From a virus: a stretch of DNA of 20,807 nucleotides. Positions 1,235 through 7,382 of the stretch are shown here, in pieces. The first letter of the stretch is position 1. Each line of letters starts with the position of its first letter. Position numbers and translations under genes: made by a program. The notes under the pieces were generated by a model, which was not told the DNA's origin, searched no databases, and worked only from the letters and a program-made list of their open reading frames with translations. Location: the IMG/VR virus record IMGVR_UViG_3300030105_002008, positions 1 to 20,807 of that record; one strand, given 5' to 3'.

Positions 1235-1804
1235 ATGCCGCTAATTCCAATTGTACCGAGTCCTATTGCTAACGTAACAACCACTAATTTCAATGTATCA
1301 GGAGATTCCGATACCTGTGAATTTGCTGATTGGCATACGCACACACAAGTTGTAAATGGAATGTACCAAAGAAAGTATGTTTACGATCAGATGCCCACCC
1401 CTGGAGTAGGGGGAGTTGTATCAGGGGCTCCTTCCGTTTCTTATAACTACATAGATATTAACTTTTCTGTCCAAGTTGCTCATGAAAAGGAACACGCTTC
1501 TTACTGTAGTGGAAACGCGCAACCCCAAGAATTGAAAATCTATGGGGATGGTGCCTTAGGTGGTTTTGGGCAATCGGGAACCTTTACTACCAGTGCTGTT
1601 GGGTACATGCGAAGGAAATGGAATATTAATAATGACACCGAAGCACTTTGCAGTCAAACAGGAAACTTGGTTATCGGCAAACTTCCAGGGTCCTACGAAC
1701 CTGCCTTAGACACCTCAGCTACTACGGGATCTACCGTAGCAGAGTTGCTAATGGGATGTGAAGGTGCTTGTTCGATTTTTAACCAAAATCTAGTTGAGTA
1801 CTAA
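1235..1804 (+). CDS. Hypothetical Cys/His-containing protein, 189 aa (probable virion protein)
   Basis: The family is not recognised. The 189-residue product has five cysteines (C28, C91, C139, C175, C179) and clustered histidines (WHTH at 33-36, HEKEH at 83-87), unusual for a phage structural protein of this size. Metal binding or disulphides are possible. The C-terminal CEGAC (175-179) is a compact two-cysteine motif. The remainder is Gly/Ser/Thr-rich and beta-like, without membrane segments or a clear signal peptide. The gene has its own AT-rich leader and ribosome binding site, and its last 26 bases overlap the convergent primase gene. Its position next to other tail genes suggests a virion or assembly protein; no enzymatic role can be supported. 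Confidence 0.8.
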   Translation: MPLIPIVPSPIANVTTTNFNVSGDSDTCEFADWHTHTQVVNGMYQRKYVYDQMPTPGVGGVVSGAPSVSYNYIDINFSVQVAHEKEHASYCSGNAQPQELKIYGDGALGGFGQSGTFTTSAVGYMRRKWNINNDTEALCSQTGNLVIGKLPGSYEPALDTSATTGSTVAELLMGCEGACSIFNQNLVEY

Positions 1805-2774
1805 TCTTATATTCGAAATCATACGCTTGGGTCTTTTCTGACATCCATGAGAATAAATCTTCTCCAGCTATGTGAGCTTCGTTCCAATCTTTGTATCCCG
1901 AGGGTGGTGGGCAGACCTCAAAAGTCTCCATCCTCATTTCTTTTCTGGTTCTATCAAATTTGTCAATCCCTCGTTTTCCCGCTGGATCATTGTCGTATCC
2001 TAGGATAATAGTACCACCAAAGGTAGAGAGGATCTCAGCCTGTCTGGGACTGATTGAGCTTCCGATAGTAGCAGTAGCGTTTACTCCCTGAAGTTGGAGA
2101 GCGCGAGCGTCTAGAGGCCCTTCACAGACAACCACATACTTCTCGTTCTCGTCGTAGGGATATAAAATATCAGAAGGCTTCGGAGCTATCTCAGTGGAGG
2201 GGTTGAGATACTTAGGGGACTGGTCATACAATGCTCTTGCCTGGAAGTAATACACCACCCCCTCGTCACTGGTGAAAGGAATGATAACCCTGTCTGTAAA
2301 CTTTCCTTCCTTGCATAGGTAAAAAGGAGCCTCTTCCTCTGTCTTTAAATCAAACAGATTTCTGCCAAACAAGAAGCTCCAGGCATCAAGCTCTGTCTTG
2401 TCTTCCGAGTTTGCGGAGGAGAGGTTGATGGGGATGAGCCTACTGGTGTCAAGCTCTAGCTGCTGCTCAGGTCTATCTAATTCGGGAACGTCTTCTCCTA
2501 GGAATTCGAAATTCTTAATGATTAAATCTCTTTGAGCCCTGAAATAAGGCACCCCCTCAATCTCCGCGTAAAGTCTGGTAAAGTTTCCTGAGCGTCCAGT
2601 CTTAAAGCACTGCCACAGACCGCTATCTATATTGACGCTCATGTGCTTCTTCCAGTCGTTTTGTACGAATACGGATTCCATAATAAACTCCCTCCCACCA
2701 GCAGAGAGTTTGCCGATATTACTGAAGTTCTCAACTAAGTAGTCTTTAATAAACTGAGGTGCTATTATGTACAT
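1779..2774 (-). CDS. DnaG/T4 gp61-type DNA primase with TOPRIM domain and degenerate zinc ribbon
   Basis: This protein would synthesise RNA primers for lagging-strand replication. Residues 8-70 correspond to the N-terminal zinc-ribbon domain, ending in GLWQCFKTGRSGNF (52-65). Residues 160-210 match the primase catalytic N-subdomain (DRVIIPF, then YYFQAR and KYLNP). Residues 212-300 are a TOPRIM domain: the acidic residue in VVVCEGPLDA is E218, D261 and D263 lie in GYDNDPAGKRG, and KDWNE is at 295-299. These are the metal-binding positions of active primases. At 331 aa it is about the size of T4 gp61 and lacks a fused helicase. Only one zinc-ribbon cysteine (C56) remains. The start at 2774 is supported by the domain boundary but has no clear Shine-Dalgarno. 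It runs against the surrounding tail genes, overlaps the nuclease gene head to head by 8 bases, and overlaps the 1235 gene tail to tail by 26. Confidence 0.9.
   Translation of the reverse strand: MYIIAPQFIKDYLVENFSNIGKLSAGGREFIMESVFVQNDWKKHMSVNIDSGLWQCFKTGRSGNFTRLYAEIEGVPYFRAQRDLIIKNFEFLGEDVPELDRPEQQLELDTSRLIPINLSSANSEDKTELDAWSFLFGRNLFDLKTEEEAPFYLCKEGKFTDRVIIPFTSDEGVVYYFQARALYDQSPKYLNPSTEIAPKPSDILYPYDENEKYVVVCEGPLDARALQLQGVNATATIGSSISPRQAEILSTFGGTIILGYDNDPAGKRGIDKFDRTRKEMRMETFEVCPPPSGYKDWNEAHIAGEDLFSWMSEKTQAYDFEYKISTQLDFG
2722..2750 (+). promoter_or_regulatory. Weak candidate promoter for the nuclease gene
   Basis: CTGAAG (2722-2727) and TTTAAT (2745-2750) are separated by 17 bases and match a host sigma-70 promoter at 3/6 and 5/6 positions. 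They lie inside the primase coding sequence on the opposite strand, the only place a dedicated nuclease promoter could be. The match is weak and unproven. Confidence 0.2.
2756..2761 (+). promoter_or_regulatory. Ribosome binding site for the nuclease gene
   Basis: GAGGTG lies 5 bases before ATG 2767 and decides the nuclease start. It sits within the first codons of the oppositely oriented primase gene. No comparable site precedes the primase start on the other strand. Confidence 0.6.
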
Positions 2775-2776
2775 AA
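2765..2776. repeat. 12-bp perfect palindrome containing both divergent start codons
   Basis: TTATGTACATAA reads the same on both strands. Its centre ATGTACAT supplies the ATG of the nuclease (+, 2767) and of the primase (-, 2774), so both proteins begin Met-Tyr-Ile. Whether the palindrome is also a protein binding site cannot be told from the sequence. Confidence 0.85.
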
Positions 2777-3555
2777 AAACAATATCTGAATCAAAATTCC
2801 AAACTTTTAAACAATGCCAATTGAAGTATCGCTATCGCTACGTCGAAAGGCTCCCTGAGCCCCCTGAGACGAACACGGAAGCTTTACACTTTGGATCATA
2901 CATCCACAAGGTCCTTGAGGACGGAGTGAACGCAAAGACCCAAGAGGAGCTTGTGTTGATCGCTGAAGAAGTGAGAGGCTCATACAAGGTATCAAAGAAG
3001 TATGAGGGCAAGGATTTAAAATGTATCGACAATTTTCTTAAGTTCAACCCTAAGCTGTCCGATACGGTTGCTACTGAGCTTGTCTTTGAAGTTCCCGTCA
3101 AAGATGACATCACCCTTAACGGAATTATTGACCGTGTAGTAAAGGGTAAGGATGGCGGGTTTTTAATAATCGACTACAAGACATCCAAGAGAGAGAAGAC
3201 CAAAGTTGAGTTATACCAGGACACCCAACTAAAAGGTTATGTGTATGCTATTAGTAAGCTGTACAAGGTACCGATCTCAGCCATTGTCGCTGCTCACTAT
3301 TACCCACTAACCGATAACTTCGTCCATGTCCAATATTCGGTGCCTCAAATAAATGCTCACCTACGGAAGATCGTTGATGAAGTCTGGAAGATCCGTAAGA
3401 AGAAGAAGGAAGAGATGAGGGCTAACAGAAATGAATTCTGTAACTGGTGTGCATACAAGACTGCTTGCCCTGAGTTCTGTACAGTGCATGAAGTACAGAA
3501 AACCATAGAAGATTTAAAATCTAAGAAGAAGAAGAAGATAAAGAAGAAGCCGTAG
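2767..3555 (+). CDS. PD-(D/E)XK nuclease, RecB/Cas4-like, with Fe-S cluster cysteines
   Basis: This 262-aa protein is a RecB-family DNA nuclease. Visible motifs in order: KFQTFKQCQLKYRYRYV (10-26, carrying C17), GSYIHKVLE (43-51, H47), GIIDRV (119-124, D122), LIIDYKTSK (133-141, catalytic D136 and K138), and QLKGY (154-158, the QxxxY motif). C-terminal cysteines C225-x2-C228-x5-C234 with distant C17 match the 4Fe-4S arrangement of AddB, Cas4 and Dna2 nucleases; C238 is extra. It ends in a Lys-rich tail (253-261). It would process DNA ends in replication, recombination or host DNA degradation. The start has a good ribosome binding site and overlaps the primase start. The 3' end overlaps the convergent small gene by 35 bases. 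It has no CRISPR context, so it is not a Cas protein in the functional sense. Confidence 0.9.
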   Translation: MYIKTISESKFQTFKQCQLKYRYRYVERLPEPPETNTEALHFGSYIHKVLEDGVNAKTQEELVLIAEEVRGSYKVSKKYEGKDLKCIDNFLKFNPKLSDTVATELVFEVPVKDDITLNGIIDRVVKGKDGGFLIIDYKTSKREKTKVELYQDTQLKGYVYAISKLYKVPISAIVAAHYYPLTDNFVHVQYSVPQINAHLRKIVDEVWKIRKKKKEEMRANRNEFCNWCAYKTACPEFCTVHEVQKTIEDLKSKKKKKIKKKP

Positions 3556-3838
3556 GGTACCTACCATATATAAATGGGTGGTAGATATCTATCTCAATAG
3601 AGACAAAGAACTTATTTACTTGTTCTGGTGAATACTTACACTTCTTAGTTAAGTAATTATATAACATCTCTAACTTGATAGGTTTTTGTTTATTCATAGC
3701 GTCCAGTACTTTAAACTGGAAGTGCTTAACAAACTTTTCAGAGAACTTATGTCTCCACTTTTCTACAAAGGAATAACTAAGTGTTTGGTTAATCAAATCA
3801 AGGAAATCAATAATGTCTATGTCTAGGTTGTTACTCAT
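3521..3838 (-). CDS. Small hypothetical protein, 105 aa, with poly-Ser tail
   Basis: The family is not recognised. I chose ATG at 3838; an in-frame TTG four codons upstream (3850) is possible but less likely. The protein is mostly helical with many aromatic and basic residues (for example FVEKWRHKFSEKFVKHFQFK), then a segment with CKYSPEQVNKFF and IYHPFIYGR, then a low-complexity end, SSLSSSSS. That serine tail is antisense to the poly-Lys tail of the nuclease and was probably created by the gene overlap. A helical core with a basic surface could bind nucleic acid or a replication partner, but this is speculation. A sampled 60-base row (3601-3660) has only about 27% GC, lower than the adjacent nuclease. 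A sigma-70-like promoter lies just upstream on the same strand. Confidence 0.7.
   Translation of the reverse strand: MSNNLDIDIIDFLDLINQTLSYSFVEKWRHKFSEKFVKHFQFKVLDAMNKQKPIKLEMLYNYLTKKCKYSPEQVNKFFVSIEIDIYHPFIYGRYPTASSLSSSSS
3523..3549. repeat. AAG trinucleotide repeat in the convergent gene overlap
   Basis: Five AAG units, one ATA and three more AAG units form an imperfect triplet repeat. The + strand reads it as lysines 253-257 and 259-261 of the nuclease; the - strand reads it as the Ser tail of the small protein. Changes in unit number would alter both proteins without shifting frame. Confidence 0.85.
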
Positions 3839-3860
3839 GTTTAAACTCAATATATATATT

Positions 3861-3889
3861 ATTATATAAGCTCATGGCTAAATCTTCAA
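3861..3889 (-). promoter_or_regulatory. Sigma-70-like promoter for the small minus-strand gene
   Basis: On the minus strand a perfect -10 box TATAAT (3866 to 3861) follows TTGAAG (3889 to 3884, 4/6 match to TTGACA) after a 17-base spacer. Transcription would start near 3854, giving a leader of about 15 bases before ATG 3838. The -35 box lies inside the first codons of the + strand gene at 3874. The -10 match and spacing are good, but the surrounding DNA is highly AT-rich, so chance is not excluded. Confidence 0.4.
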
Positions 3890-4242
3890 AACAAATCCAG
3901 AATTTTTTAACTGCCGTAGGTGCAGACCCTGCTAGAGATGTCCAGCTTGTCCCTAAGTCCGATTCTTGTGCTGATCCAGGAGACGTTGTGTTTTTTAGAT
4001 ATAAACTTGGAACTGGAAGAGGCAGCCGTGCAGAGAGACTCCTTTTGGTAACTAAGCCAGTAACTAGGGATGCCGCAACTGGAAACCAATTACTTACAGG
4101 ATTTAAGCTTCCTGCGGATGGAGATTACACCCCAGAATCATTAGATACGCTATATACACAAGGAGATCTAGGAGAAGACGATTTTAGAACTTATATAATG
4201 ACTAATATATTTGGGCAACTTAAGAGGATAAGAAAACAGTAA
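3874..4242 (+). CDS. Small tail-operon protein, 122 aa, unknown function
   Basis: The family is not recognised. The protein sits directly before the tape measure gene, where tail-assembly proteins are often encoded, and its stop overlaps the next start (TAATG). After a short helical N-terminus (to about residue 25) comes a beta-rich core with GDVVFFRYKLGTGRGSRAER (37-56), then LLLVTKPV, and a second strand-like part, NQLLTGFKLP. Hydrophobic strands around a Gly/Arg turn are compatible with a small SH3-like barrel. The C-terminus is helical and basic. No frameshift signal typical of lambda-type tail chaperones was seen. ATG 3874 lacks a strong Shine-Dalgarno. It may be a tail chaperone or minor tail protein; the sequence does not decide. 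Confidence 0.8.
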   Translation: MAKSSKQIQNFLTAVGADPARDVQLVPKSDSCADPGDVVFFRYKLGTGRGSRAERLLLVTKPVTRDAATGNQLLTGFKLPADGDYTPESLDTLYTQGDLGEDDFRTYIMTNIFGQLKRIRKQ

Positions 4243-6098
4243 TGGTTTTATCAACAATAGGTGATGCTGCAATGGGTCCCCTCATTGGGGCTATGGGGGC
4301 ATTAAAAGATCAGATTAAAGCTGCAATGTCTTTTGCTGATAATGCTCAAAAAGCATCCTTAGCTCTCGGCCAGACATATGAGCAAACCCGTGATTCCCTC
4401 GGAAGCTCCATGGAAGGCTTGCGCGGTGACATCAACCAGAGATTTGGTGCAGCTATCGCTGGGATGGAGGCTGGCTTACAGGGCAACACAGCAGGGGTAG
4501 CCAAACTAATCAACCAGCAGCAATTAACTGGAACAGCCTATCAAGCTACTGCTAAGGCTTTTGCTGGGTTAGAAGCAGGTATGAACCTTTCCAGGGATGA
4601 TACTAATGCACTTTCTGAAAGCTTGATTAACACAGGAGCAGAGTACGGTGTTAGCACTGATAAGCTCGTTGGTGCCATTGACGCTTTGAAAGATACATTC
4701 CCTGCACAAAAATTAGCAGGAATGGGTAAAGATGTTATGGGAGCAGTAGCCTCCCTTCAATCCGAGTTAGGCCCCGCGTTGGCAGGACCTCTTAATAAGG
4801 TTATGAAGGCAGTCTTTGACCCCAGCCAGTCGGGGATGGAACAGCTAACCAAACTTGGTCTTGAGGGGGTTCGGGAACAACTCTCTGCTGCTAAAAGCTC
4901 GGAAGAAGCACAAAAGATTTTAAAAGACGCATTTGTTAGAGCTTCAGATACATTTAAGATGCATGCTGGTGGGGCGGATCAGTTCTTCCGTCAGACAGGT
5001 GTCGCTATGGAAAACTTAGGAACGGCGGCGATTGATTTTACAACTGTTGCTGATGCGTTTGGGGATAGAACAAGACAAGAGATTGACCAGACAGCAGACT
5101 TTGGAAAAACATTAGCAAACTTAAAAAATGAGATCATGGTTCCGTTCCAAGAAGGTCTGGCTGTTGCATATCCCTTCCTCTTGGAAGCTATGGATGTTAT
5201 CTCAGGAATTATGAACACGGTAGGAGAGAGGTTTAAGAAATTCGCAGAAAGTCTGGGAGGAGAGGATGGAGCAGCAGCGACCATGAAGAAATTTAAACTT
5301 GCTGTTATTGATTTTTCTATAATTGCCTTAGGTAAGTTAGAAGGAACATTTGGGTTTATGAAAAAAATCATAACTCAAACTGTTCCTTCCGCTTTTGGAA
5401 TGCTCTCTGATGCAATTACGAATTTTGCTAGCCCAGGGGGGCCTTTAGATCACTTAAAATTTGGCTTCGCTGTACTTGCTGGTGCTGCTGGAAAGATCGG
5501 AGAGATTCTTCGCATATCAGGCGCGGGTCTTCTTAGGACTTCGTCTCGTGAGATGTCAGATGAAATGAAACAGCGCATTCAAGCGGTTCAAGCAGGTGAA
5601 GCAGGTAGAGGTGTTTTCGGAGGAAAAACCAAAGAAGAATCTCAGTTCGTTCTTCGTATGATAGATCAGGGTAAAGGTGTATTTGAGTCTATGAGATTAC
5701 TATCAGACTTTAGAAAAGATCCTGAAAAGTTTGGATTTGGGGCAAGACTAAAAGAGATGGCTGACATGTCATTTGGCCCTGGCGCAAAGAGAAGTCCAAT
5801 GTTTCAAGAATTGTCAGAGATGCGAGCGAACATTGAAGCTGGAAATGCTATGCGAGAGAAAAGTGTTGAAACCCTTGGAGAGCTTAATGATAAAACACCT
5901 GAGCTAGAAACAAAATCTGAGTTCTTGGGAGAGACAGCAAACATGTTAAGTGCAAGTATTGAACAGATTTTAGGAATTAGAGAAGATACTACATCTAAAG
6001 ACATATTAGAGGAGTTAGTAATTGCAAATATACAAAGAGGCTCGGCAACGGGCTCACCAGCAGCATCAACAGCACCACAAATAGATAGTAATGGGTAA
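4242..6098 (+). CDS. Tail tape measure protein, 618 aa
   Basis: The tape measure sets tail tube length during assembly and is usually ejected ahead of the DNA. The product is long, Ala/Gly-rich and mainly helical, with hydrophobic helices in the middle (around 345-425, including FAVLAGAAGKIGEIL). The N-terminal half has long amphipathic helices such as QLTGTAYQATAKAFAGLEAG, and the C-terminus is charged, all typical of the family. The length is close to T4 gp29 (590 aa). The gene lies directly upstream of the tube-cap and gp53 genes, as expected. It starts by TAATG overlap with the preceding gene, with AAGAGG some 14 bases upstream, and its end overlaps the next start by 8 bases. No lysozyme or peptidase domain is visible. 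The family assignment rests on composition and gene order, since tape measures diverge strongly. Confidence 0.8.
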   Translation: MVLSTIGDAAMGPLIGAMGALKDQIKAAMSFADNAQKASLALGQTYEQTRDSLGSSMEGLRGDINQRFGAAIAGMEAGLQGNTAGVAKLINQQQLTGTAYQATAKAFAGLEAGMNLSRDDTNALSESLINTGAEYGVSTDKLVGAIDALKDTFPAQKLAGMGKDVMGAVASLQSELGPALAGPLNKVMKAVFDPSQSGMEQLTKLGLEGVREQLSAAKSSEEAQKILKDAFVRASDTFKMHAGGADQFFRQTGVAMENLGTAAIDFTTVADAFGDRTRQEIDQTADFGKTLANLKNEIMVPFQEGLAVAYPFLLEAMDVISGIMNTVGERFKKFAESLGGEDGAAATMKKFKLAVIDFSIIALGKLEGTFGFMKKIITQTVPSAFGMLSDAITNFASPGGPLDHLKFGFAVLAGAAGKIGEILRISGAGLLRTSSREMSDEMKQRIQAVQAGEAGRGVFGGKTKEESQFVLRMIDQGKGVFESMRLLSDFRKDPEKFGFGARLKEMADMSFGPGAKRSPMFQELSEMRANIEAGNAMREKSVETLGELNDKTPELETKSEFLGETANMLSASIEQILGIREDTTSKDILEELVIANIQRGSATGSPAASTAPQIDSNG

Positions 6099-7080: not shown

Positions 7081-7382
7081 CCTCATTAGGTCCCTTGACA
7101 GGTCCATATAGCTTGGACTACCAAACCGTGCGACATAGAGGTGTTTTAACTACCACAACTGTAAACACGTTTAATTTTGATTCTATGCTATCAAATCTAG
7201 GAGCGGCCTACGAGTATGAGGTTGGATACGTCCCTGAAGGGTATGAACATCGCCCAGATTTAATTTCTAATGTATTTTATGGAAGCCCAAAGAACTGGTG
7301 GCTCTTGATGGTAGTTAATGGAATTTCAGACCCGTTTGAGGGCTTTACACAGAACCAAAGAATACTTATCCCAAAACTCTAA
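7077..7382 (+). CDS. gp53: Baseplate wedge protein gp53-like, 101 aa
   Basis: gp53 is a wedge component that links baseplate sectors in T4. This 101-aa protein has the characteristic C-terminal signature: HRPDLISNVFYGSPKNWWLL (58-77), then NGISDPFEGF (81-90) and RILIP (95-99). This 'rPDlis..vYG.p..WW' plus 'N.i.dPf...g..l.IP' pattern resembles LysM-like folds. It is shorter than T4 gp53 (196 aa) and represents the conserved core. It is tightly coupled on both sides: ATGA with the upstream gene, and TAATG with the hub gene. Its neighbours, tube cap and hub, support the baseplate assignment. Confidence 0.85.
   Translation: MTSLGPLTGPYSLDYQTVRHRGVLTTTTVNTFNFDSMLSNLGAAYEYEVGYVPEGYEHRPDLISNVFYGSPKNWWLLMVVNGISDPFEGFTQNQRILIPKL

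Follow-up and report, generated by a model that had tools for sequence, protein, structure and literature searches.

Gene content and base composition of the locus

The window, the whole stretch of 20,807 nucleotides analyzed here, takes up the opening 20.8 kb of a viral contig 31.6 kb long and contains a T4-like baseplate region. The tail surroundings assigned to this locus by the original prediction were borne out by homologues of gp53 and gp25, found by HMM, and by gp6, identified via homology to an annotated baseplate wedge gp6; the match of a tape-measure-like gene was weak. Three genes of alternating orientation (−, +, −; hereafter the trio) lie within this region: a DnaG-type primase without zinc ligands (1779–2774, − strand, 331 aa), an Fe-S PD-(D/E)XK nuclease (2767–3555, + strand, 262 aa), and a small helical protein (3521–3838, − strand, ~105 aa) kept in all trio-bearing relatives. 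The coordinates and strands proposed earlier were upheld, and so were, by Pfam and phrog matches, the primase and nuclease identities. The left flank comprises gA (169–1170, + strand, 333 aa), a gene of the structural region without a family, and gB (1235–1804, + strand, 189 aa), a variable gene that separates gA from the primase and occurs in some relatives only. To the right, a divergent AT-rich gap of 35 bp (3839–3873; in most relatives it measures 29–49 bp and carries TATATATAATA-type sequence) separates the small gene from gC (3874–4242, + strand, 122 aa). Both gA and gC are kept beside the trio. Neighboring genes overlap tail to tail at gB/primase (26 bp, 1779–1804) and nuclease/small gene (35 bp, 3521–3555), and head to head at primase/nuclease (8 bp, 2767–2774, ATGTACAT); the overlaps at both inner trio junctions had previously been missed. 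In contig G000, just past the window, unknown bases at ~2811–2824 of locus L002 break a reading frame after 2511, marking an assembly gap.

The primase matched Pfam Toprim_2 (2.3e-11), DNAG_N, and the DNA primase family phrog_47 (4e-36). Its predicted structure (pLDDT 89) was most similar to Aquifex DnaG and T4 gp61, and the TOPRIM residues E218 and D261/D263, plus K188-Y189, were invariant. It shares the TOPRIM catalytic residues and the RNA-polymerase-domain fold with DnaG-type primases, including T4 gp61. Unlike the DnaG type, primases of this lineage have no CHC2 zinc ligands: the cysteines are absent from all members, with the zinc-ribbon-like region kept, and we therefore call the protein DnaG-type by its catalytic core only. 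Its gene is located within the tail region, whereas T4 encodes gp61 in its early region.

The nuclease matched PDDEXK_1 (6.4e-34), and residues H47, E104, D122, D136, K138, Q154, Y158, and C17/C225/C228/C234 were invariant. It thus carries the H, E, D, DxK, and QxxxY motifs together with four cysteines, a pattern common to Cas4/AddB/Exo5-like Fe-S nucleases. It differs from Cas4 in scoring below the cut-off of the Cas4 family model TIGR00372 (49.8 vs 65 bits) and in having no CRISPR context; sequence comparison with solved structures gave no match at E 0.1. The small protein, as originally called, fell into no family above threshold. Its model is helical (pLDDT 87), and the best structural match, topo VI A (Z 4.5 over 63 residues), was below the reliable range and weakly winged-helix-like. 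Identification as T4 gp62 or gp33, suspected by eye, was rejected for lack of a family or fold match.

The original prediction further ascribed a distinct base composition to the trio. The quoted 60-base rows were reproduced (2101, 57%; 2401, 55%; 2821, 55%; 3601, 27% GC), but the claim drawn from them did not hold, as whole-gene GC overlaps that of the neighbors: primase 44.7%, nuclease 41.8%, and small gene 31.8%, compared with gA 41.3%, gB 43.3%, gC 40.7%, the tape-measure-like gene 44.0%, and the window 39.8%. The small gene is the only AT-rich member. Rows of 57–58% GC also occur in tail genes (481, 1381, 4381, 4441, 9481, and 12001), and the 17 rows at ≤27% are scattered through tail genes too; the quoted rows are ordinary 60-base fluctuation. 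The deviant composition expected of a moron was not found in the primase and nuclease relative to the 40.7–44.0% of their neighbors.

Gene order in relatives and wider genome layout

We scanned IMG/VR with the primase, the nuclease, gC, gA, and the gene at 6091, obtaining several hundred loci (for gA and the 6091 gene, the best 80 matches each were listed). A flank gene was present in ~305 loci, and all complete ones (158/158, some contigs counted several times) had the same gene order and strands. Collapsing by nuclease sequence yielded 130 distinct members, 118 of which (window and LR756511 included) contained the divergent primase–nuclease pair, and 92 (window included) the full order gA+, primase−, nuclease+, small−, gC+. 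Identities ran down to ~33% for the primase and ~45–47% for the nuclease. The lineage is a large, diverse family of uncultured, mostly marine phages.

These data bear directly on the idea, put forward originally, that the trio is a recent moron-like insertion of a replication cassette into a tail operon. The strands opposing the tail operon and the single AT-rich gene would fit such an event. Yet no flank-bearing relative with room for the trio lacked it among the matches listed (very distant trio-less relatives are possible), identical order is held at ~33–47% identity, gene GC is not distinct, and the divergent pair also occurs in the 595-kb phage LR756511. Features of morons such as presence or absence at one site across relatives were not observed, nor was insulation by an own promoter and terminator, terminators being unconserved and a promoter detected for the small gene only. 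Since every relative found with enough sequence carries the trio in the same place and orientation, the very outcome that the original prediction had named as decisive against it, the insertion reading is refuted, and we give it almost no credence. Gene order and composition instead indicate that the trio is ancestral and fixed in the genomes of these uncultured T4-like myoviruses, which form a diverse lineage.

The interval between gA and the primase is less stable. Relatives without gB have gA or other inserts in its place, a query with the gB sequence alone retrieved no gB relatives from IMG/VR, and insertions of ~1–7.5 kb were found in L042, L047, L048, L118, and L119. Because of these insertions and the presence of gB in some members only, we consider the interval a variable spot beside the fixed trio. 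The uncultured phage LR756511.1 (L155, 18529–20966) encodes divergent primase and nuclease neighbors at 28% identity each; unlike in the window, a 204-aa gene separates the pair, the starts do not overlap, and gp6 is placed elsewhere relative to the pair.

The wider layout was examined in three long relatives (71–111 kb) and a 130-kb contig of the lineage in the Prochlorococcus single-cell assembly AG-409-P03 (QCKN01000003.1; L324, loci L422–L428). Nearly all genes in these sequences point in one direction. Recurrent opposite-strand genes encode a sigma-like protein (weak match, phrog_234), a PDDEXK_15/Holliday-resolvase-like nuclease, the small protein, the primase, and a UvsW-like helicase with a 75–82-aa partner; the trio is the tightest case of this general layout. 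Other opposite-strand genes share divergent gaps of 13–28 bp with their neighbors (1556–1573 and 2609–2623 in L158 of G001; 17166–17181 in L168 of G008). These gaps center on CTATAATAG boxes of near symmetry that lie just ahead of the ATG, by a few bases, and look like bidirectional promoters with near-leaderless starts. The left end of QCKN01000003.1 matched a Pistol ribozyme and, over a short stretch, tmRNA. The presence of this contig in a Prochlorococcus assembly is a host lead, not proof. The gene psbA, sought as a sign of cyanophage, was found in none of the viral contigs among the longer relatives, and its sole match was on another contig of the Prochlorococcus assembly.

Start signals, promoters, and terminators

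Of 73 distinct junctions, 70 have primase and nuclease start codons that overlap by 8 bp (ATGTACAT or ATGTTCAT) or by 2 bp (CATG), or that directly adjoin (CATATG, 0 bp). Another has an 11-bp overlap, and in the remaining two the genes are set apart, by 30 bp in one and by 518 bp with an HNH-type reading frame in the other; among the few breaks of the overlap is an HNH-endonuclease-like frame between the two genes at 7186–7703 of L129. The overlap is not an annotation choice, as the window has no further ATG, GTG, or TTG among primase codons 1–22. The Shine-Dalgarno site of the nuclease consequently sits inside the primase gene. In the window, the start signals fall within primase codons 5–11 (2742–2762, + strand) and comprise a GAGG Shine-Dalgarno core (2756–2759) and a TTTAAT box (2745–2750) that may act as the −10 element of the nuclease. 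A GAGG/GGAG core precedes the nuclease within the primase frame in 69/73 distinct sequences. In 11 of these it occurs in another frame, opposite SS or TS rather than PQ; what preserves it is hence the nuclease, and not the residues that the primase needs there. Primase codons 3–11 also showed the strongest synonymous-site conservation of eight genes (ratio 1.83, against a gene mean of 0.99 with sd 0.14). The maxima were at codons 6, 9, and 10, which face the Shine-Dalgarno site and the T(C/T)TAAT box. Because the first codons of gA (1.53) and gC (1.48) are constrained too, part of this signal may reflect a general 5′-end effect; the constraint thus provides strong but not exclusive evidence for the embedded nuclease signals.

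The shared start could alternatively serve as an operator bound by a dimeric regulator, which might be the small protein. In the window, TTATGTACATAA forms a perfect 12-bp palindrome at this position, and the small protein is weakly winged-helix-like. The palindrome is not kept in relatives, however: ATGTACAT is present in only 35/73 distinct junctions, the others having ATGTTCAT, CATG, or CATATG, and all variants are explained by two opposed ATG codons. We rejected the operator as a candidate and regard it as very improbable.

Upstream of the small gene, a sigma-70-like promoter motif (3861–3889, − strand; 10/12 match) comprises TTGAAG (3889–3884), a 17-bp spacer, and TATAAT (3866–3861). Its −35 element falls inside gC, whose codons 3–7 are under synonymous constraint. 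TTGAAA-17-TATTAT/TATAAT motifs scoring at least 10/12 occurred at this position in 28/77 sequences vs 6.5% of shuffles, and the same scoring returned 1% for the nuclease and 2% for the primase. The motif was clear in close relatives, not in the most distant third. The primase lacked a detectable promoter as well as its own Shine-Dalgarno site, whose core was present in 11% only. A candidate primase promoter within the nuclease gene was discarded: the best matches averaged 7.5/12, below the shuffles of the small-gene upstream region (8.3), and the expected position showed no synonymous constraint. Terminator-like hairpins were unconserved at the four convergent ends (12/81, 11/82, 3/71, and 9/64 vs 8.2, 3.8, 4.8, and 4.2 in shuffles). 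A weak enrichment after the nuclease (11 vs 3.8 expected) and after gB/gA (9 vs 4.2) leaves room for some members that may insulate their units.

Proposed opposition of transcripts and comparison with known systems

We propose, with a probability of roughly 0.55, that the ancestral trio is a noncontiguous operon or excludon, in which a leftward transcript of small gene and primase would oppose the late transcript. Gene maps show opposite-strand genes nested in a one-directional operon, as in noncontiguous operons; among the opposed genes, the small gene is preceded by a promoter motif in close relatives, and the primase by none. DNA-metabolism genes of these phages stand, one or two at a time, opposite a one-directional late region of >100 kb. 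An early-type promoter in the gap between small gene and gC would give rise to a leftward transcript of the small gene that continues antisense across the nuclease into the primase; we assign the primase to this promoter because no closer one was found. The nuclease would be read rightward from the signals in the first 11 primase codons, by read-through from the late tail operon, or both. With overlapping start codons and no conserved terminator, the two transcripts are predicted to be complementary across the primase–nuclease region, and hence opposed. Strong late transcription would then counteract expression of the primase and vice versa, in the manner of noncontiguous operons or excludons. 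Transcript extents, early/late timing, and mutual antagonism are inferred from these sequence features. The trio probably keeps early and late gene expression apart. Such a switch, which the original prediction had offered as the alternative to insertion, is compatible with the opposite strands, the small-gene promoter, the signals embedded in coding sequence, and the lack of conserved terminators. It is conceivable, if rather unlikely, that the device also acts as a timer: late transcription of the tail operon would shut off the primase, through either antisense RNA or colliding polymerases, and activate a nuclease promoter lying within the primase gene, which would end priming at the onset of virion assembly. 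If so, the same logic would apply to other opposite-strand DNA-metabolism genes in the late region.

The main rival is plain compaction, i.e. ancestral genes squeezed together with small, independent promoters and no antagonism between strands. This is a respectable possibility to which we lend limited confidence. Compactness is a general trait of phage genomes, bidirectional −10 elements have been described (PMC10268837), and other opposite-strand genes of the lineage have TATAAT-type boxes of their own and near-leaderless starts in their 13–31 bp divergent gaps. Compaction nevertheless leaves unexplained why overlap and strand alternation are never lost, and why the primase has no detectable promoter or Shine-Dalgarno site.

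Should the opposed-transcript reading be correct, it would explain why single DNA-metabolism genes are reversed inside late operons and point to a testable mechanism, encoded in the sequence, by which large phages part replication from assembly. Noncontiguous operons or excludons have been demonstrated for menE-menC-MW1733-ytkD in S. aureus and tha/ith in phage 80alpha (PMC7154746, PMC11087260); a search for antisense-opposed early and late phage genes returned no direct match beyond these two papers. Unlike in these cases, the opposed genes here are replication genes with overlapping starts in a large T4-like myovirus. Like them, the trio has opposite-strand genes inside an operon, from which fully overlapping reciprocal transcripts are expected. 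Divergent overlaps are strongly under-represented in prokaryotes: across 58 species they made up 331 of ~15,000 overlaps (PMC2174442). Their rarity stems from the need of both genes for start signals upstream. Those overlaps are head-to-head like that of primase and nuclease, but here the arrangement is kept across a whole phage lineage, with the ribosome-binding site of the nuclease written in primase codons.
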